49,125 nucleotides of DNA from assembly GCA_903851135.1 (NCBI GenBank), contig CAINNK010000004.1:1-49125 (forward strand), given 5' to 3'. Shown here in pieces: positions 4,864 to 12,919 of this stretch (positions are counted from its first letter, which is position 1; each line of letters starts with the position of its first letter). Under the pieces are notes generated by a model. That model saw only the letters and a list, made by a program, of their open reading frames with translations. It ran no database searches and had not been told where the DNA came from. The DNA comes from an uncultured bacterium. GTDB lineage: Bacteria > Patescibacteriota > Minisyncoccia > Moranbacterales > GWC2-37-73. Position numbers and translations under genes: made by a program.

Positions 4864-4919
4864 CTTCCGTTGATGGGCTCAAGATTTTTGTGCTGACTTG
4901 AAAACTACCGTTTTTATTC

Positions 4920-5246
4920 CTACTTAGCATCGGTTCTCAGAATGCCAGCAGCTAATGTCGCAACGGCCATGATATAAATCTGTCCACCACCGGAACTCTC
5001 ATAAACCAAGTAATGGCTTGCATACATTTGTTCCATGAGAACTGTATCTGCAAGTAAGACTGCGTCTGTAACAGAATCCTTGGTAGCGTTAGTTTCAAGA
5101 ATTCCGACAGCCAAGGCAGCAACTGCCTTGATGAAAATCTGTCCGCCACCACCACTTTCATAAACTTGATACTCACTCCTTTCCATCTGTTCCTTAAGAA
5201 CTTCATTGGCGAGCGAAACCACTCTTTTAACGGTACTTTCAATCAT
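4920..5246 (-). CDS. Internally duplicated protein of two 51-residue repeats
   Basis: 108 aa made almost entirely of two tandem repeats, residues 5-55 and 58-108, which I align at 31 identical positions of 51. Each repeat has a helix with EQM, then (Q/L)VYES-x-GGGQI, then a hydrophobic Ala-rich helix ending GIL-x-T. I do not recognise the family. There is no signal peptide; the Gly-rich turn between an amphipathic and a hydrophobic helix could be a binding or self-assembly unit (inference). The start has a Shine-Dalgarno (AAGGAG). It has its own consensus promoter at 5316-5344, with a 50-bp upstream element shared with the gene at 264-632. Confidence 0.8.
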   Translation of the reverse strand: MIESTVKRVVSLANEVLKEQMERSEYQVYESGGGGQIFIKAVAALAVGILETNATKDSVTDAVLLADTVLMEQMYASHYLVYESSGGGQIYIMAVATLAAGILRTDAK

Positions 5247-5315
5247 AACAGACTCCTTTTTAAATAGCGGTTGATGTTTGTAATGTACGACTTAGATAAC
5301 CTATTTCAACAAATA

Positions 5316-5344
5316 AAAATAACACCCAAGGTACTATCTGTCAA
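5316..5344 (-). promoter_or_regulatory. Strong sigma70 promoter for the duplicated-repeat gene
   Basis: Minus strand TTGACA (plus 5339-5344), 17-bp spacer, TATTTT (plus 5316-5321), about 70 bp upstream of the start. Confidence 0.8.
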
Positions 5345-5352
5345 GGTGTTGT

Positions 5353-5400
5353 ACAAAATGGCAACATTCAAACATGAAGGCCCCTTTTTCTGCTAAACTA
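5353..5400. repeat. Shared upstream element, copy B
   Basis: Matches 768-817 (identical core GCAACATTCAAACA, then a GAAG-GCC / pyrimidine tract). It has the same position and orientation relative to a -35 box as copy A. Confidence 0.6.
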
Positions 5401-5432
5401 GAGCGTTAACTTTTAAAACGCTTTGGATATGA

Positions 5433-5458
5433 AAAAGTGGCTGATAAAAGCCACTTTT
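5433..5458 (-). terminator. Intrinsic terminator of the DUF1428 gene
   Basis: A 10-bp stem, AAAAGTGGCT / AGCCACTTTT, loop of 6. The minus strand ends in a short T run. Confidence 0.7.
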
Positions 5459-5490
5459 GAATGGATGCTGTTAAAATCTACTTGATTTCT

Positions 5491-5871
5491 TTATCCCTCC
5501 ACTTCGACCTGAAAACCGCCATAGGCCATTCGCTTCATCTCAAAAGGCATTGGCATGTTTTCGAATTCATTCTTTTGATTTTTCATTTCTTCCAACACCT
5601 TGGCATTCACCTGATCCCGGTGTTCTTTTGATTTGAAGACGATGAAAGAAAACCAGACCGTTTCACCGCCGGATGCTCCAGCCATTTCAGCAAATTCGCG
5701 AGCCTTTCCACCGCCCATATCCTGAGGAGAAAGATCGTCGCCTCGGCATTCATAATATTCAAGTGCGCCGTGCTTTATCCAAATGTCCCGACCGCCCTCG
5801 GCCATTTTCTTGTACTGCTCGGTTTTGTCATTTGGAACCACGAGCACAAATCCATCCACATATTTTTTCAT
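5491..5871 (-). CDS. DUF1428 family protein (YbaA-like)
   Basis: 126 aa. The N-terminus KKYVDGFVLVVP, the GALEYYECRGDD block, the FSFIVFKSKEHRDQVNAKV block and the terminal KRMAYGGFQ are the landmarks of the DUF1428/YbaA family, a small dimeric alpha-beta barrel of unknown biochemical role. Length equals the family norm. A GGAG lies about 20 nt upstream of the ATG, further than usual, so the start is likely but not certain. It has its own terminator at 5433-5458. Confidence 0.85.
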   Translation of the reverse strand: MKKYVDGFVLVVPNDKTEQYKKMAEGGRDIWIKHGALEYYECRGDDLSPQDMGGGKAREFAEMAGASGGETVWFSFIVFKSKEHRDQVNAKVLEEMKNQKNEFENMPMPFEMKRMAYGGFQVEVEG

Positions 5872-5985
5872 AATTTTGCAATTAATATTTACTCCTGTAA
5901 AAATTTATACGCTTCGCTAATTTCTTTTTTTTCAAACACAAAAGCAAAGCGCTTGAGCCTGCAACAAGTCCCGCAAACAAAGAAA

Positions 5986-6006
5986 AACCGAGGTTTTCAC
6001 CTCGGT
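5986..6006 (-). terminator. Orphan hairpin terminator
   Basis: A 7-8 bp stem (ACCGAGG / CCTCGGT) followed by TTTTTC on the minus strand. No minus-strand gene is visible upstream of it (6010-6200), so it may be the leftover of a lost gene. Apart from it and the promoter of the next gene, the 5872-6206 gap shows nothing I can support. Confidence 0.5.
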
Positions 6007-6145
6007 CTGTTCTATTTTGCTCCCTCTGCTGAACAAGCCTAGAACTTTTGAGTGGAGCAAAGTATGGGCCGAGATGGAATTATTAAACAAATTTGGTTGT
6101 AATTTATTAAGTGTAAAGAATTCTTAATTAAACTTGATTTAAAGC

Positions 6146-6151
6146 TATAAT
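6146..6151 (+). promoter_or_regulatory. Probable -10 box for the 6207-7000 pair
   Basis: A perfect TATAAT 55 bp upstream of the first ATG; no convincing -35. Confidence 0.4.
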
Positions 6152-6206
6152 TGTACTAGTCTGTAGGTATGGTACTGAATATTGCATAAATCAATTAAAA
6201 AGAACT

Positions 6207-6455
6207 ATGGACAATACTGAGAAACTCAACGAGGAATTCAAATTTTATAGAGAAAATCAAAAAAGCCTAGTTGCAGATTATAAAGGTAAATTTGTTGTTA
6301 TAAAAGACAAACAGATTGAGGGTGTTTATGATTCGGAAATGGAAGCCTATGAAGATTCTCAGCAAAAATACGAACTTGGCACGTTTCTTATACAATTAGT
6401 TGGGTCAGGAGAGGAAAGCTATTCACAAACTTTTTATTCTAGGGTGACAATATAA
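6207..6455 (+). CDS. Small acidic protein, likely DUF5678-type, partner of the retropepsin-like gene
   Basis: 82 aa, no membrane segment. The pattern FYRENQKSLVADYKGKFVVI followed by GVYDSEMEAYEDS, then KYELGTFLIQ and a C-terminal FYSRV fits a family of about 80-residue bacterial and archaeal proteins (DUF5678-like) in which a stretch of the form 'YxGKxVxIxDxxVxGVYDS' is conserved. Function unknown. The stop codon overlaps the start of the next gene by one base (TAATG), so the two are translationally coupled. Confidence 0.75.
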   Translation: MDNTEKLNEEFKFYRENQKSLVADYKGKFVVIKDKQIEGVYDSEMEAYEDSQQKYELGTFLIQLVGSGEESYSQTFYSRVTI

Positions 6456-7000
6456 TGCAAAAAATATCAGCTCTAACAATAAGAGGAAACGGAAGGATGG
6501 CATCCATAAATTGCAAGGTTGGCATATCTATCCCGTTCATGGGTGACCCATCCACGCAGAGGGGTCTTGTAATGAAACAATTTAATGGGGTTTGGGATAC
6601 TGGAGCAACCAATTCCGTAATTACCAAGGAGGTTGCCGAAGTGTTGCAGCTTAAACCAACAGGCCAAACAGAAATACATACCGCAAATGGTGCATGCATA
6701 AAAAACACATATCTCGTAAATATCTTTCTACCTTCAAATGTAGTACTCCCTCATGTGAGGGTTACTGAAGGTGAGTTAGGAGGAATCCAAATGTTGATTG
6801 GCATGGATGTTATAACAATAGGTGATTTTTCAATTACAAATTTCGAGGATAAAACAACTATGTCCTTTAGGCTTCCCTCTTGCGGAGAAGTAGATTTTGT
6901 ACCTGAGGCAGATGAAAAGAATGAAAAAGATTTGCTTATAGGAATGAATAGGCACCAAAAAAGAGCCTACGAAACACAAAAAAGGAAACACAAAAAATAA
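6455..7000 (+). CDS. Retropepsin-like aspartic protease domain protein
   Basis: 181 aa. WDTGATNSVIT at 47-57 contains the D-T-G-A triad (catalytic D48), and MLIGMDVI at 113-120 is the hydrophobic-hydrophobic-Gly motif that closes the pepsin-like active site. One such domain per chain implies a homodimer, as in retroviral and DdI-like proteases. The C-terminus (about 160-181) is a basic tail, NRHQKRAYETQKRKHKK, perhaps for nucleic acid binding. There is no signal peptide, so it is cytoplasmic. The start overlaps the previous stop (TAATG) with AGGGTGA upstream. No reverse transcriptase or other retroelement gene is nearby. Confidence 0.85.
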   Translation: MQKISALTIRGNGRMASINCKVGISIPFMGDPSTQRGLVMKQFNGVWDTGATNSVITKEVAEVLQLKPTGQTEIHTANGACIKNTYLVNIFLPSNVVLPHVRVTEGELGGIQMLIGMDVITIGDFSITNFEDKTTMSFRLPSCGEVDFVPEADEKNEKDLLIGMNRHQKRAYETQKRKHKK

Positions 7001-7007
7001 ACTACTC

Positions 7008-7038
7008 TTGACTTTTCTTTACTTTTATGAAATACTAT
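7008..7038 (+). promoter_or_regulatory. Promoter of the candidate structured RNA
   Basis: TTGACT (7008-7013), 19-bp spacer, TACTAT (7033-7038), starting 8 bp after the stop of the protease gene. The long spacer is the weak point. Confidence 0.45.
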
Positions 7039-7044
7039 TTATAG

Positions 7045-7406
7045 AACTTTCATAATTTTTCAACCTTTCAGGCAACGGTCGATAACAACTACCAGAGTTT
7101 GACGAACCAAACCTCGAAAGGAATCCAGTTAATGCATTTAATCTTTGATAAAGACTAAACTAGGTAGACCTAAAAAAGGATGAGGCGCCGTGCAGTTGAA
7201 AGCCTGCAGAAAGACCGAAAAATATCAAAGGGTGAATGAATGCGTGGAATTGGTAATTTGATAGACGCCTTTTGGGGCTCATCTTAAACTCTACAAAAAA
7301 TGATGACTATGCTGTTTTAAGCATTGTGTTGTTATTGTTTGTGGGTGATTACCAATTCTACACATACTTACATAAAGACGGCTATCAAATATAGCCGTCT
7401 TTATGT
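7045..7406 (+). ncRNA. Candidate large structured non-coding RNA, about 360 nt
   Basis: No convincing reading frame, but many complementary segments between a promoter (7008-7038) and a strong terminator hairpin (7371-7405). Visible pairings: 7064-7069 with 7116-7121 (CCTTTC/GAAAGG), stacked on hairpin 7095-7101/7108-7115; 7177-7184 with 7278-7285 (GATGAG/CTCATC core); hairpin 7309-7313/7320-7324; and a long-range helix 7240-7257 with 7348-7365 (17 of 18 pairs counting one G-U). Size is like RNase P RNA or tmRNA, but I see neither the RNase P core (GAGGAAAGTCC) nor a tRNA-like end with GTTCGA/CCA, nor the 4.5S RNA core. Class unknown. Confidence 0.55.
7371..7405 (+). terminator. Strong hairpin terminator of the candidate RNA
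   Basis: A perfect 15-bp stem (CATAAAGACGGCTAT / ATAGCCGTCTTTATG) with a 5-nt loop, then TTTTC. Confidence 0.8.
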
Positions 7407-7687
7407 TTTCAAAAAAAGAAAATCAACAAATAAATACTAAGGAACAATTAGTAAAACAGGATTTGAATCGCGTTGTCTTTGTTGATTTGTTTATAAATTT
7501 AAATGTGGAAGTTAATTTAGAATCAAAAAATCTAAAAAAAAGTAATTTAGGAAAATTATTTAGCAAAGCATTTTTTTTACTAACGCTTTTATCAATGGAT
7601 TATTCCATGGTTTTAAAAAATATTAACTTTGTCATAAATATAATTATTAGAATTTTTTAACAATATAAATAGTCTATTTCGCAAGAT

Positions 7688-7722
7688 GAAAAAGACCATA
7701 CCTAAAGATAGTCTTTTTTATT
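7688..7722. terminator. Bidirectional hairpin terminator
   Basis: AAAAAGAC ... GTCTTTTT stem, with A-run before and T-run after, so it could work on either strand. It could end the minus-strand APH-like unit. Between 7407 and 7687 I see only very AT-rich DNA with a doubtful 85-codon frame. Confidence 0.6.
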
Positions 7723-7797
7723 TTTCCCGCCAAAATATCTTTTTTCTCGCTGGCAAAACATCCTTCAATTTTTCCCAGCAGCTTTCCTTTTTCAAAA
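7711..7797 (-). pseudogene. Decayed 3' end of a thioredoxin-like gene, copy 1
   Basis: On the minus strand this segment translates as FEKGKLLGKIEGCFASEKKD and on through a GKIKK helix, matching the last about 30 residues of the ferredoxin-thioredoxin-like protein encoded at 10131-10733. There is no 5' part and no start. It is followed directly by the 7688-7722 hairpin. Confidence 0.7.
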
Positions 7798-7822
7798 AAA
7801 GTATTTTGGGTTAAAAGATAGC

Positions 7823-7848
7823 AGGAAATTGTCCTCAGCTAGCTTCTT
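7823..7848. repeat. Dispersed palindrome, copy at the end of the APH-like gene
   Basis: AGGAAATTGTCCTCAGCTAGC lies directly at the 3' end of the minus-strand APH-like gene. It resembles the copies at 8722, 10105 and 10807. Confidence 0.45.
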
Positions 7849-7849
7849 G

Positions 7850-8662
7850 CTAAAAGTTGTTGCAAATAAATTCTATCAGGGGTTTGTGAGCCTCAATTTC
7901 TTCCAGGGAGTCTTTTTGAAAATATTTTGCACATTCTTCTATCTCAATCAATCTCCTCATTTCTGCGCGAATGACAAGCTGTTTGATTTCGGGCAAATCT
8001 TTTACTAGGTTAAATATTGATTCATCGGCCCCCTCCCAAACTATTGCGTCCACTAGTATTATTGCCTTGGCAAAATCCTTCGGTCGATAATAAGGTGTAA
8101 AATCGATTATTGCAGGCGGCAAGACATCATGAAAGAGAATGTTCCCGGTAAAATCACCGTGTATTATCTGATTAGGCAAGTCTATCGGCTTTAGCAATTT
8201 TTGCAGCCTGCTCAGTTGTTCTTGCAACAGCGGATGATGCGCGATGGTTTGTTCGTCCCAGGTTGCGCGATCTGCAATTGCCCAGGGGTTATTTCTTTTT
8301 GAAATGAAATCCGGGCAGGGCAAGCCTTTCAAAGCGTCGTGAAACTTTTCACAAAGCTTGAATTTTGCCTCCCAGTTATTTTTTTCATGTTCTCCTTCGA
8401 CAAATTCATAGGCAATCCATCCGTTTTCGACCCAGTTTCCGTCGGTTGATTTCAGGTAGTGGGGGACTTTGAAGCCATCTTGTTTTATGTTGTTTAGTGT
8501 TTCTGCAATCCATTCATATTCGGCGATGTTCTCAATCCGCTTCAAGACAATGTTTCCAGCTTTATAGTTATCTCCCTGACCACCATGAAGCAGTGCTGGT
8601 TTTTCTTTTATGCCAAAGGAGTTTAAAATATTTTCAGGAACTTCAAAAGTTTTTAGTTTCAT
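7850..8662 (-). CDS. APH/choline-kinase-like phosphotransferase (TIGR02569-like)
   Basis: 270 aa. The aminoglycoside-phosphotransferase-like kinase core is clear: IIHGDFTGN (catalytic D170, N174) and the metal-binding IIDFTP (D187), 13 residues later. The N-lobe has a short Gly-rich stretch LLHGGQGDNYKAG (24-36) and a lysine in IVLKR (38-42). The combination HGDxxGNxLF...LPPAxIDFxPYxRP resembles the TIGR02569 group. Substrate unknown; resistance is not implied. There is no Shine-Dalgarno. It lies in a run of minus-strand single genes separated by repeats. Confidence 0.8.
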   Translation of the reverse strand: MKLKTFEVPENILNSFGIKEKPALLHGGQGDNYKAGNIVLKRIENIAEYEWIAETLNNIKQDGFKVPHYLKSTDGNWVENGWIAYEFVEGEHEKNNWEAKFKLCEKFHDALKGLPCPDFISKRNNPWAIADRATWDEQTIAHHPLLQEQLSRLQKLLKPIDLPNQIIHGDFTGNILFHDVLPPAIIDFTPYYRPKDFAKAIILVDAIVWEGADESIFNLVKDLPEIKQLVIRAEMRRLIEIEECAKYFQKDSLEEIEAHKPLIEFICNNF

Positions 8663-8721
8663 AATTTTTTAATCTGGCTTATATGGAGTAGTTGAACTTT
8701 TTTATCAGCAAATATCATATC

Positions 8722-8745
8722 CAAGGACCGTCCTTAGATAACTAT
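8722..8745. repeat. Dispersed palindrome, copy after the 8752-9150 gene
   Basis: CAAGGACCGTCCTTAGATAAC, an AAGGAC/GTCCTT palindrome, sits just behind the stop codon of the minus-strand gene. Confidence 0.5.
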
Positions 8746-8751
8746 TTCTAA

Positions 8752-9150
8752 TCAGATCCTATTTAGTAAAATTAGTTTCTTGAGTTTTTCATCCATACCT
8801 TCGCATACCTGCAGGTACCTGGGGAGGGTGCCGTCATTTTCAATGTCGTGACTGTTGCCGGGCAGGATATAGACATTACCACTTGAAGGATCTCTTCCAA
8901 GAGTCACCTTTATTCCTTCAGTTTCGAATCTTTGCATGAGCGTGTCGATGGGGGTGGTGTAATCAGGATGCTCTTCTTCGACAGCTTTCATTTTCAAATA
9001 GCCACCTGAGTCAATGCCAGGAAAAGGAAAGACCTTGCCGTATAACTCTATCGCTAACGCTATAAGTTCCAAATCTTTCTTCCTTTGGATTTCTCTTGCG
9101 CTATTTTCTTTAGGCACTGGCGCTGAAAATTTTTTTTCAAAATTCTCCAT
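8752..9150 (-). CDS. Hypothetical protein, 132 aa
   Basis: Soluble, no membrane segment. A charged N-terminal 25 residues precedes a helix (DLELIALAIELYGKVFP), then a mixed region with GRDPSSGNVYILPGN (about 85-99) and a C-terminal helix. The family is not recognised. No clear Shine-Dalgarno. It is flanked on both sides by the short palindromic repeats and by decayed thioredoxin-like 3' ends, so its neighbourhood is rearranged. Confidence 0.7.
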   Translation of the reverse strand: MENFEKKFSAPVPKENSAREIQRKKDLELIALAIELYGKVFPFPGIDSGGYLKMKAVEEEHPDYTTPIDTLMQRFETEGIKVTLGRDPSSGNVYILPGNSHDIENDGTLPRYLQVCEGMDEKLKKLILLNRI

Positions 9151-9240
9151 AATGATAATTAATTAAAATAGAAGCTCTCACACGATTTCTCACTTGGAAC
9201 TTAGTGGTAATGTTTACAAGATTTGAATTAGTTGGTACTT

Positions 9241-9337
9241 ATCCAATTATCTCCTTTATTTTCCCAGTCAAAATATCCCTTTTCTCATTGTCATAATATC
9301 CTTCAATTTTTCCCAGCAGTTTTCCTTTTTCAAAAAA
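9241..9337 (-). pseudogene. Decayed 3' end of a thioredoxin-like gene, copy 2
   Basis: The minus strand reads FEKGKLLGKIEGYYDNEKRD, then DILTGKIKEIIG and a stop, nearly identical to the C-terminus of the protein at 10131-10733, including the stop and flanking bases. Upstream of the homology (9338-9440) the frame is lost. The rest of the 9151-9444 gap shows nothing supportable. Confidence 0.75.
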
Positions 9338-9444
9338 TAAAAAAACGAACCAAGTCTCATTCGAAGAATGCAGTGCTCCCGACTAAATTTTGCAGCATTG
9401 GAAGCGACTTTCAGTTTAAAAAATATTAAAGCTGTTTCAGTTTT

Positions 9445-9987
9445 TTACGCTTCAGGGTCAAACCAATCAATTTTATTCACAGAGGCGTTTGGATATGCGG
9501 GAATATCATAGAACAATTGGTTTTCGCCGTTGTTTTTAATTGTTTCCATCATTCTGCCGACTCCTGCGTGACTCACGACTAGAATAGTTTCTGGAGACTT
9601 GGACAGCTGTTGCAAAAAAGAGCAGACACGATTGCGGAAGTCAGCTGCATTTTCGGCATTTTGAGCGGAAGTTAATTCTTTCGAGGAAATCTTACGAATT
9701 GGCGTCCTAGTTAGACTGCCCATGTCATATTCAGTAATTCTGCTGTCAATTTCTATTCCATTTTTATCAAATCCGATTTCTTGCGCAATTATGTTTGCCG
9801 TTTCAAGTGTCCTTTTTAGTGGTGAACAAAAAATCCTAACCACATTAGGAATTTCGGCTTTTATTGCTTGAGCTGTAGCCTTCGCTTGCTCCTTGCCTTT
9901 TTCAGTGAGAACAGAGTCATCTCTTTGACCTGCGAATACTCCCTTTAGATTGGCTTCGCTCTCACCGTGTCGTACGAAATATATCAT
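9445..9987 (-). CDS. Histidine phosphatase superfamily (phosphoglycerate-mutase-like)
   Basis: 180 aa. The catalytic RHGES is at 6-10 (phospho-accepting H7). The SPLKRTLETA block (R59) and ITEYDMG (E86) follow, and the second catalytic His is in VVSHAG (H140). This is the complete active-site set of branch-1 histidine phosphatases (PhoE/GpmB/CobC type). It removes phosphate from a small metabolite; the substrate cannot be told. No signal peptide. No close operon partner. Confidence 0.9.
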   Translation of the reverse strand: MIYFVRHGESEANLKGVFAGQRDDSVLTEKGKEQAKATAQAIKAEIPNVVRIFCSPLKRTLETANIIAQEIGFDKNGIEIDSRITEYDMGSLTRTPIRKISSKELTSAQNAENAADFRNRVCSFLQQLSKSPETILVVSHAGVGRMMETIKNNGENQLFYDIPAYPNASVNKIDWFDPEA

Positions 9988-10104
9988 AAAGAAAGTTTAA
10001 CATCATTTGAAATTATTTGTAAACAAAAGCAGGAAATCGTTGCGCAAAAAGCTTGTTAGCTGTTAAATTGCAGGGAGAAAAGCATTTTTGAATAGAAAAA
10101 GTGC

Positions 10105-10127
10105 AAGGATCGTCCTTAGCTAATTTC
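10105..10127. repeat. Dispersed palindrome, copy after the ferredoxin-Trx gene
   Basis: AAGGATCGTCCTTAGCTAA immediately behind the stop codon of the minus-strand gene. The minus strand then reads GCAC-TTTTTC, so it might double as a weak terminator. Confidence 0.5.
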
Positions 10128-10130
10128 TGA

Positions 10131-10733
10131 TTATCCAATTATCTCCTTTATTTTTTCTGTCAGAATATCCTTTTTCTCGTTGGCAAAATATCCTTCAATC
10201 TTTCCCAGCAGTTTTCCTTTTTCGAAAAACAGCAGGGCGGGCAATTTTTTGATTTTCAGTTTCGTTTGCAATTGGCTGCCAATCAGCATTTTGCGATATT
10301 TGACGGTGAAGTCGCCGAGAAGTTTTTTCAGGGGAATTGATTTCAGCAGGCACGCAATGGAATCATCATTGAAACATTCCACCGCCACCAATTTGTCTGA
10401 CTCCAAAACCTCCAACTCAAACTTGTCGTCCGAAATCAGAAAAGCGGTGTGAATCGGTTGGGCGCCGTAGCGGTCGACAAACAAGTCTGAAATTTTTCTT
10501 GAATCTTCTTTCAGTTCTTTTTTGATCTTGACATATTCTTTTTCATCTTTCGCCACGTGAATGGCTGCAACTTGGCAACTCTTTTCACATTTTCGGCAAC
10601 TGATGCATTTTTTGTTATCAATTGCCACACTTTTTTTCTTGGCGTCCCAATACAAAGCCCCAGTGGGGCACACCGCAACCCCATTACATTCTTTGGCATT
10701 ATCGCAAATTTTGAAATTGATCAGCACAGACAT
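10131..10733 (-). CDS. 4Fe-4S ferredoxin domain fused to a thioredoxin-like domain
   Basis: 200 aa. Residues 1-60 form a ferredoxin-like domain: C43-x2-C46-x2-C49-x3-C53 is a standard 4Fe-4S motif, while the first motif is unusual (C10, C16, C22-P). Residues about 85-200 look like a thioredoxin fold with the cis-Pro region KLPALLFFEKGKLLGKIEGY, but the redox CxxC is missing; only one Cys remains in NDDSIACLL. A longer frame upstream (GTG at 10800-10802) is rejected because a perfect extended -10 (TATAAT, plus 10774-10779) lies inside it, so ATG 10731-10733 is the start. The role may be electron transfer or a scaffold. Two remnants of its 3' end lie at 7711 and 9241. Confidence 0.8.
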   Translation of the reverse strand: MSVLINFKICDNAKECNGVAVCPTGALYWDAKKKSVAIDNKKCISCRKCEKSCQVAAIHVAKDEKEYVKIKKELKEDSRKISDLFVDRYGAQPIHTAFLISDDKFELEVLESDKLVAVECFNDDSIACLLKSIPLKKLLGDFTVKYRKMLIGSQLQTKLKIKKLPALLFFEKGKLLGKIEGYFANEKKDILTEKIKEIIG

Positions 10734-10773
10734 ATTTTTGTGAAAAATTATTAGAGGCTCTTTTCTGCTCAGT

Positions 10774-10782
10774 ATTATATCA
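10774..10782 (-). promoter_or_regulatory. Extended -10 promoter of the ferredoxin-Trx gene
   Basis: Minus strand TGA-TATAAT (plus 10774-10782), about 40 bp upstream of the ATG. It decides the start codon. Confidence 0.65.
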
Positions 10783-10806
10783 CAGTTAGAACTTGGAAAC
10801 ACTGTT

Positions 10807-10829
10807 GAGGAAGGTCCTTTGCTAGCTTA
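10807..10829. repeat. Dispersed palindrome, copy between divergent genes
   Basis: TTGAGGAAGGTCCTTTGCTAGC context; same core as the copies at 7823, 8722 and 10105. Confidence 0.4.
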
Positions 10830-10879
10830 CAGTACGGTGCGCATAATCATTTTGCATTTAGTAGTCTAAAACTAACTTG

Positions 10880-10908
10880 TTGACTTTTTTAAACTATAGT
10901 GCAATAAT
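10880..10908 (+). promoter_or_regulatory. Promoter of the GNAT-ASCH gene
   Basis: TTGACT (10880-10885), 17-bp spacer, AATAAT (10903-10908). The about 100-nt leader contains a GAAA-tetraloop hairpin, CTTGTC-GAAA-GACAAG (10973-10988). Confidence 0.6.
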
Positions 10909-11013
10909 TTATTGATTTCGGAAAAACTGAAATCATAGAAGTTATTTTAAAATTAACCATTGGGTCACACAACTTGTCGAAAGACAAGCTGGATTCAGCA
11001 TTGGAGATAAGCT

Positions 11014-12354
11014 ATGAATGCAAATGTTTTAATTAGGGATGCACGACAAAATGACTTTGACTGGGTTGTGGAGCTTATGCAAGAAGCTCTTGAGCCCTAT
11101 TATGGCGGAGATCATCGAGCCCATGCGAAAAGAATCTTTGATGCCCATATCTTAGGTGGTCAGGATCATGTTGGTTTCTTTTCTTTTAAACAGAGCATGT
11201 TTGTGCTTGAGGTTCAGGGAGAAAAGGCTGGAATTATTCACGTAGTGGGAAAAAGACAGTCAACTTACAAAATCAGCCCGCTTATTCTTTCACAAAAATA
11301 TCAAGGAAAGGGAGGTTTAGGAAGTATGCTCCTGAGTTATGCAGAGAACTATGCTCAAGCACATGAAGCCAGACAGCTTTACTGCACCGTTGCTGAAAAA
11401 AATTTCTCGGCGATGCAGTTTTTTCTTCGAAAAGGATTTATCAGAGCTGGCAGTTCTGACAGTCATTACAAAAATGGGGTAACGGAGACGATGTTGTACA
11501 AGCCTTTACGGGAAAAGGCACAAGTCGAAAGATTTGATGAAGTCAACATTTCCGTTATTCCCTTTTCGGATATTAATCCTGACCTGAGGAATCAAGTTGC
11601 AAGAATTCTCTTGGAAAGACTTCCTGAATCGTTTGAAGGCATAGATGAAAAGTGGATTAGTTCACTTTTCGAAGGATATGCCAGAAGGGACACGGCAGAT
11701 GTCAATTCCAAATATAAGTTAATTTTTGTGGCCCTTGATGGAAAAGGAAAAGTTGTCGGAGTGGCTGGAGCTACACCTAAAAAAGGAAGCCCAATAAAAG
11801 TCATGCCTTTTATTGCAACTGACAATGTTGCTTTTGAGGCACTTTTAATCGACATTCCTCATCAGCTGGTGTCCTATGGCCACAAGCTTTACATCCATAT
11901 AAATCCTACAGTCGAAGAAGTGGTTTCGCTTCAACGCCTCGGTTGGAAATTGGATGCTGCCTTACCTGGAGCATATCGTCCTGAAATCACTACTCAACAA
12001 TGGAGCCTTAAAATTGGAGAAAATACTATGAGAACAATGAGAATTAAGCAAAGATTTTTTGACCTGATAAAATCTGGTGCCAAACAACTTGAGGTGCGTG
12101 TTGGTTACGACAGCATCAACAGAATAACAATTGGTGAATCAATCAATTTGATTTCAAAAACATCTACCATGAATGTGCGGGTGAAAGACATCAGAAAATA
12201 CACCAATTTCGGATTGATGCTGGAAAAGGAGCCTTACAGCATGATTGCTCCAGATGTTTCCTCTAAAACAGAACTGCTCAAACTGCTCAGGAACATTTAT
12301 CCTTCAGACAAAGAAAAGCTCGGCGTTGTTGTGCTTGAGCTTGAGGTAAAATAA
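11014..12354 (+). CDS. GNAT acetyltransferase / second GNAT-like / ASCH domain fusion
   Basis: 446 aa, three modules. Residues 1-165: a GNAT fold with the acetyl-CoA loop QGKGGLGSMLL at 97-107 and a C-terminal FFLRKGF strand-helix. Residues about 170-335: a second, more divergent GNAT-like unit (KVVGVAGA strand, then a long helix and LGWKLD). Residues 339-446: an ASCH domain with the KSGAKQLEVR motif at 353-362 (RNA-binding PUA-like superfamily). The combination suggests acetylation of an RNA or RNA-bound substrate, or modification coupled to RNA sensing (inference). GGAG precedes the ATG. It is convergent with a free-standing ASCH gene, with which it shares a terminator. Confidence 0.8.
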   Translation: MNANVLIRDARQNDFDWVVELMQEALEPYYGGDHRAHAKRIFDAHILGGQDHVGFFSFKQSMFVLEVQGEKAGIIHVVGKRQSTYKISPLILSQKYQGKGGLGSMLLSYAENYAQAHEARQLYCTVAEKNFSAMQFFLRKGFIRAGSSDSHYKNGVTETMLYKPLREKAQVERFDEVNISVIPFSDINPDLRNQVARILLERLPESFEGIDEKWISSLFEGYARRDTADVNSKYKLIFVALDGKGKVVGVAGATPKKGSPIKVMPFIATDNVAFEALLIDIPHQLVSYGHKLYIHINPTVEEVVSLQRLGWKLDAALPGAYRPEITTQQWSLKIGENTMRTMRIKQRFFDLIKSGAKQLEVRVGYDSINRITIGESINLISKTSTMNVRVKDIRKYTNFGLMLEKEPYSMIAPDVSSKTELLKLLRNIYPSDKEKLGVVVLELEVK

Positions 12355-12380
12355 TAGGAATTATCTTTAGTAAACAAACC

Positions 12381-12413
12381 CCGGGAAGCTCAATAGAGTC
12401 TTCCCGGTTTTTT
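12381..12413. terminator. Shared terminator between convergent GNAT-ASCH and ASCH genes
   Basis: An 8-bp CCGGGAAG / CTTCCCGG stem followed by T7 on the plus strand. The minus-strand gene's stop codon sits inside the T-run. Confidence 0.85.
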
Positions 12414-12748
12414 TATATCAATTTGATTTTTATACCAACTACCCCATATTTTTCTTGCTCATTTTTCGGATAAAAACTATTTATTTCTTCAAGTAGAAAC
12501 GCTTTTGAGGTCCCTCCGAAATATTCAGGTGGAAAATGTGAGAAAAGTTTTTCAAAAGAAGGATAATTATAAATTGCTGTGACAATAGTTTTGATATTCT
12601 CTTCCGGATCTTCATTTTGAATAAAAAATATTTCATCCCCAACGTTTATTAGTTGTCTTTTTTCATCAAAAAGTCTTGATTCTATTATTTTGTTTCCAGT
12701 GGCTATTTTATTGAAAGGTTCGCTGGCCAGTTTCATTTGATGAATCAT
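12413..12748 (-). CDS. ASCH domain protein (DUF3850-like), 111 aa
   Basis: A single ASCH/PUA-like domain: KLASEPFNKIATGNKIIESR (about 6-25) is the characteristic first helix and strand, followed by a beta-rich VGDEIFF segment and a C-terminal YGVVGIKI strand. Related proteins are predicted to bind RNA or hydrolyse modified nucleosides (e.g. acetylcytidine in YqfB). It is convergent with a larger protein that ends in the same type of domain. No Shine-Dalgarno is visible. Confidence 0.8.
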   Translation of the reverse strand: MIHQMKLASEPFNKIATGNKIIESRLFDEKRQLINVGDEIFFIQNEDPEENIKTIVTAIYNYPSFEKLFSHFPPEYFGGTSKAFLLEEINSFYPKNEQEKYGVVGIKIKLI

Positions 12749-12815
12749 ATCTTTTATAAAAAATAATTATTTTAATAAAAAACAGGTGCAAGGACCTGAG
12801 TTTATTATTTGGCGT

Positions 12816-12834
12816 GCTACGCGATGAGCGTAGC
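12816..12834. other. Hairpin next to the tRNA gene
   Basis: A 7-bp stem GCTACGC / GCGTAGC with loop GATGA, then GAGTTTTTC on the plus strand. It lies 11 bp beyond the 3' end of the minus-strand tRNA. T-run polarity fits the plus strand, where no gene lies upstream. Confidence 0.4.
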
Positions 12835-12844
12835 GAGTTTTTCG

Positions 12845-12919
12845 TGGCTCCGCGACCAGGATTCGAACCTGGAACCTGAGGATTAACAGTCCTTCGCTCT
12901 ACCGTTGAGCTATCGCGGA
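12845..12919 (-). tRNA. tRNA-Asn (GTT)
   Basis: A complete cloverleaf on the minus strand: acceptor TCCGCGA/TCGCGGA, D-arm AGCTCAACGGTAGAGC, anticodon loop CTGTTAATC with anticodon GTT, and T-arm CCAGGTTCGAATCCTGG. The 3' CCA is encoded (plus 12845-12847). A promoter (TTGCCA, 16 bp, TATAAT) lies at plus 12949-12976. Confidence 0.97.

Follow-up and report, generated by a model that had tools for sequence, protein, structure and literature searches.

What is the structured RNA that appears to be encoded at 7043–7405 (+) of the window, the whole 49,125-nt stretch of uncultured bacterial DNA that we analysed, and to which genes does it belong? A sequence-only reading had described it as a free-standing RNA of ~360 nt tied to the retropepsin-like gene on its upstream side.

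Fold and sequence of the RNA

The description as a noncoding, structured RNA holds. No ORF of at least 60 aa lies inside 7043–7405 on either strand, and the predicted minimum free energy of -107.8 kcal/mol lies well below the shuffled mean of -75.3 (z -6.7), with none of 100 shuffled sequences as stable as the native fold. The 5' end at ~7043 is set by the position of a promoter-like site. Since the segment is conserved at 71–72% identity (BLASTN) in two other genomes, G068 and G045, it is not a chance fold. In all three, folding is more stable for the transcribed strand than for the complementary one (-106.1 vs. -99.3 in the window, -105.4 vs. -93.1 in G068, -108.1 vs. -95.0 in G045), as expected of an RNA and, in part, of (+) strand DNA as well.

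The predicted fold (all + strand) begins with a 5' helix, P1, between 7064–7072 and 7112–7121; the homologues have a stronger P1. A possible long-range pairing joins 7089–7093 (CUACC) to 7163–7167 (GGUAG), a long-range helix joins 7134–7140 (GCAUUUA) to 7237–7243 (UGAAUGC), and a small hairpin, GCAG/CUGC, occupies 7192–7207. In the long core helix (7244–7257 with 7348–7361) both arms are almost invariant across the three genomes. The pairing of 17 out of 18 positions reported earlier between 7240–7257 and 7348–7365 is present, as 16 Watson-Crick pairs and one G-U pair. Compensatory changes in these helices are few. The 7089–7093/7163–7167 pairing has one compensatory change (UUACC/GGUAA in the homologues), and the small hairpin has two (GUGG/CCAC in G068 and GCGG/CCGC in G045, by eye and with the register shifted in G068), but the 18-bp helix has none because its arms hardly vary. 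These few two-sided changes come from three homologous sequences only (window, G068 and G045).

The promoter claimed for the RNA exists as a site, TTGACT-17-AATACT at 7008–7036 (+), but its match of 9/12 alone is no better than background: the scan gave nine promoter-like matches in the region where 6.9 would be expected. The site is made more credible by both homologues, which, despite different upstream sequence, have promoter-like sites at a matching distance (TTGAAA-18-TATAAT in G068, 11/12; TTGACT-16-TAAAAT in G045, 10/12). From the end of the site to AACCTTT in the first helix there are 24–25 nt in G068 and G045 and 25 nt in the window. On the minus strand of these Moranbacteria leaders a consensus scan, which a non-consensus promoter could escape, found no antisense promoter site of 9/12.

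Homologues, the Rep operon and its element

BLASTN, run first on the 96 genomes closest to the window's and next on 131 from its order, found the RNA only in the window, G068 and G045; a fourth match, of 23 nt, is the hairpin alone. G068 and G045 are one genus of another family, recorded as Moraniibacteriota/Moranbacteria, and the RNA is missing from the five further members searched within the window's own genus. Phages and plasmids gave no BLASTN match to the leader, and viral contigs contained none of the exact core patterns. R1, a covariance model built on the 3' core, was run over genomes of the order (131), class (384) and phylum (380) and returned only the three known loci; its next-best full-length match, G114, is not a leader by eye. 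Over 48 Rep loci, R1 scores one further leader, L041, at 16 bits at the right place. The sequence similarity is not significant, so we treat L041 as an analogue.

In G068 and G045 the order is a promoter-like site, the RNA with its hairpin, an ORF of 47–48 aa whose ATG abuts that hairpin, and a protein of 372–374 aa. The genes upstream differ in all three genomes, so the RNA belongs with what comes after it; as far as gene order indicates, its homologues occur only before Rep operons, the window copy excepted. The proposed link to the retropepsin-like gene is accordingly rejected. In the window a DUF5678-like ORF overlaps the retropepsin-like ORF at 6207–7000 (PF13975, 2e-9), and no retropepsin-like gene stands beside the RNAs of G068 and G045, where the conserved neighbours are the small ORF and a gpII-like Rep. 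Because it has no homologue among 122 relatives, the retropepsin-like ORF may be cargo of a mobile element.

On the downstream side, an ORF that starts with the ATG at 7403 (7403–7660, +) is a homologue of the small ORF in the complete operons. The resemblance runs over its first ~45 codons (MFSKKENQQINTKEQLVKQDLNRVVFVDL vs. MLEKEENLQINEEKEKQDLDNLVGFFDLL) and then gives way to AT-rich DNA. The 'AT-rich desert' of the window begins where this decayed ORF fades and Rep is missing. Because the window's own genome has no Rep and the small ORF has faded, the window copy is probably an orphan that has kept promoter, RNA, hairpin and small-ORF start and has lost Rep.

The 374-aa protein of the complete operon is very probably a rolling-circle replication initiator of the gpII/X type, with its activity assigned from family membership. 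Searching species genomes with a Rep profile built from three sequences gave 54 loci, of which a few score weakly, and a single viral contig was also detected; the lineages include Patescibacteria, Omnitrophota, Babeliales, Alphaproteobacteria and others. Family members are remote. Among 33 aligned ones, 12 match PHROG_702 ('replication protein'), one matches PF05144 (Phage_CRI/G2P, 4.8e-6) and one, weakly, TIGR01629 (rep_II_X), while the G068 Rep itself matches no profile. The AlphaFold model of the 374-aa protein (pLDDT 87.5) finds an Inoviridae G2P in a fold search against BFVD (E 3.4e-6), with modest best-match TM-scores of 0.35–0.5, and a Foldseek search against the PDB returned nothing. 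The members at loci L033–L087, from many candidate phyla and Alphaproteobacteria, are mostly missed by Pfam, NCBIfam and PHROGs models, and a ~50-aa ORF and a SpoVG-like gene often lie upstream of them. In several relatives the SpoVG gene apparently stands between small ORF and Rep, one case being checked by Pfam.

In G045 and in G008, whose Rep is 39% identical, the Rep operon is followed by cargo genes, including a cytosine DNA methylase in G045, and then by the gene of a large serine recombinase with Resolvase, Recombinase and zinc-ribbon domains. The end of the recombinase gene overlaps tRNA-Asn in both, and cargo and recombinase together mark the Rep element as integrative. Two further loci, L045 and L051, have tRNA-Asn near Rep. 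Direct-repeat att sites at the element ends were not found. The window RNA likewise points toward a tRNA-Asn (12845–12919), 5.4 kb off. In the sister genome G005 tRNA-Asn is directly followed by the terminator that corresponds to window 7689–7719. In the window the two are separated by 5.1 kb (7720–12834), which thus looks like an insertion directly behind tRNA-Asn, and the region looks like an insertion hotspot. The RNA lies outside this insertion; the stretch 4878–7688 is variable too. The one serine recombinase in the window's own genome is distant, on another contig, at 32% identity.

Other features of the neighbourhood deserve mention. Partial tRNA-Asn copies occur at the same hotspot in G003 and G004. 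Short dispersed repeats of ~80–125 nt, 76–96% identical, lie at 5314–5431 and 9238–9341/10104–10229 of the window and recur on other contigs of its genome and in sister genomes. A 108-aa ORF at 4920–5246 (-) consists of two similar halves, YQVYESGGGGQIFIKAVAALAVGIL / YLVYESSGGGQIYIMAVATLAAGIL.

The hairpin at the start codon and the proposed role of the leader

The RNA ends in a hairpin at 7370–7406 (+), ACATAAAGACGGCTAT/ATAGCCGTCTTTATGT, which abuts the start codon at 7403 and in the window pairs with it. It had been read as a 15-bp terminator. The hairpin is there, but with 12 bp perfect or 16 bp if extended, with a U-tract broken by the ATG, and at the junction with the operon. Because of that interruption a strict terminator scan finds none in the window; nor does it call one in G045 or, for the sense strand, in G068. 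The distance from this terminator-like hairpin to the first start codon of the rep operon is 0 nt in the window, G068 and G045. A small-ORF start was assigned in 14 Rep operons. In 11 of them a hairpin ends 0–13 nt ahead of that start, against 104 of 1113 random ATGs (9%) of the same loci; the Moranbacteria trio forms one cluster, so the independent count is ~9/12. The start of L041 was placed one base early in this count, and the result is unchanged. Since transcription starting upstream must pass the hairpin, it is placed to gate the operon.

Upstream in the leader, 7256–7264 (ATTTGATAG) is an exact 9-nt complement of 7382–7390 (CTATCAAAT), which covers hairpin 5' arm and loop, and is a candidate pre-emptor or antiterminator strand. 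A switch had been suspected from another pairing; a possible switch is supported, but the alternative pairing is better placed here. The complement is 9 nt long in the window, 8 nt in G068 and 7 nt in G045, with no compensatory change. In shuffled window sequences a complement of at least 9 nt arises in ~2% and one of at least 8 nt in 7.6%. The G008 leader, dissimilar in sequence, likewise carries 9 nt complementary to its own hairpin (4% in shuffles). Significance in this complement test is no more than moderate.

If the attenuator reading given below is right, at least three unlike leader sequences serve at this position before Rep. A long leader is absent from several Reps of the family. 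The L041 leader (L041:3418–3752) has a near-perfect promoter (11/12), a z of about -8 and a tandem strong hairpin. It also has two interleaved, mutually exclusive hairpins, AATCCGAT/ATCGGATT and AAATTCCCAAG/CTTGGGAATTT, just before the small ORF, and looks like a textbook attenuator.

On balance we lean towards the reading, drawn from these sequence comparisons, that the RNA is the 5' leader of an integrative element's replication operon and acts as a conditional attenuator, the window copy being an orphaned relic. With the hairpin at 7370–7406 formed, transcription would stop or the start codon would be hidden, and no Rep would be made. Were 7256–7264 to capture 7382–7390, the hairpin would be blocked and the operon read; this pairing and the long helix would together make a pseudoknot that excludes the hairpin. 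Such a switch would set how often the element replicates. Its signal could be a protein, either the small ORF product or SpoVG; M13 offers a precedent, its gene V protein binding the leader of the gene II mRNA (PMC5405960).

The strongest rival, which we consider unlikely, is a role as DNA: the conserved structure would be a replication origin, with a double-strand nick site and/or single-strand origin hairpins, and transcription would be secondary. The Rep is of the gpII kind and the M13 origins fill the region directly before gene II (PMC5405960), and the core GGAATTGGTAATTTGATAGACGCC is near-invariant and not covarying, as a protein-binding DNA site would be, which could reflect Rep binding. 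Against this, the promoter-like site keeps its distance in all three genomes, folding favours the transcribed strand (G-U pairs, a bias that the (+) DNA strand partly shares), and the hairpin, which abuts the start codon, differs between families yet stays a hairpin. The G008 element, moreover, shares no leader sequence despite its related Rep. The DNA and RNA readings are not exclusive.

A second rival makes the RNA a stand-alone, trans-acting product of the element that serves in regulation, incompatibility or defence and is terminated by its own hairpin. The promoter-like site and closing hairpin, both kept in the window after the loss of Rep, would suit it; however, both complete loci join the RNA directly to small ORF and Rep, no copy outside such a context is found except the window's in the order, class and phylum genomes scanned with R1, and recent decay explains the retention there. 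We regard this as quite improbable. For the window copy alone one may imagine that the orphan leader is still expressed and kept for action in trans, its near-invariant core pairing with the leaders of incoming elements, or titrating their regulator, and so blocking replication. We give this little credence; if true, it would make a mobile element's own leader into an RNA-based incompatibility or defence device.

That the RNA falls outside known classes, as first proposed, was borne out by an Rfam 15 search, which at gathering score assigned no family to the window or to the G068 and G045 leaders; permissive matches in the window were at chance level, none credible, and ARAGORN found no tmRNA there. 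It is very hard to credit that the leader is an unrecognised, diverged member of a known catalytic or housekeeping class (group I/II intron, RNase P, tmRNA, 6S), the one support being a sub-threshold permissive match in G068 to group-II-D1D4-3 (21.7 bits vs. a gathering score of 32, E 0.55), with no group-II-type match in the window or G045 and no domain V seen by eye. The leader RNA is in no RNA database family, is narrowly distributed and is new.

If the attenuator reading is true, replication of a gpII-type element would be gated by an RNA leader switch. To our knowledge, replication-gating RNA leader switches have been described mainly for small Firmicutes plasmids. In the literature searched we found no such leader described for this Rep family and none on such elements in Patescibacteria. 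The layout would also give a simple rule for finding more: look before Rep for a ~50-aa ORF whose start codon abuts a hairpin.

Comparison with known replication leaders

A close likeness in layout is to the repC attenuator of the rolling-circle plasmid pT181, in which a terminator-like stem-loop lies just upstream of the start codon and a pre-emptor is complementary to its 5' arm (PMC5703833). Here, too, the leader of a Rep operon has a hairpin before a start codon, and 7256–7264 is a candidate for the complementary segment; no sequence relation is seen. Unlike in pT181, the Rep is of the gpII family and not Rep_trans, a small ORF stands between leader and Rep, and the U-tract is interrupted by the ATG. 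The repR leader of pIP501/pAMbeta1, ~329 nt with attenuation before rep (PMC4981023), is similar as a long, attenuator-like leader before a rep gene. These are theta plasmids, in which the antisense RNAIII is central; none was found here, and the antisense promoter in the leader of both pT181 and pIP501 has no counterpart found here. With M13/f1 our locus shares the Rep superfamily and a noncoding region directly upstream, a likeness of layout and Rep. In contrast to M13/f1, it belongs to a chromosomal element with a serine recombinase and a DNA methyltransferase, and its leader is much longer and more structured. The arrangement, a replication-gene leader with an attenuator-like hairpin, is thus of a known kind, while this leader RNA is new.
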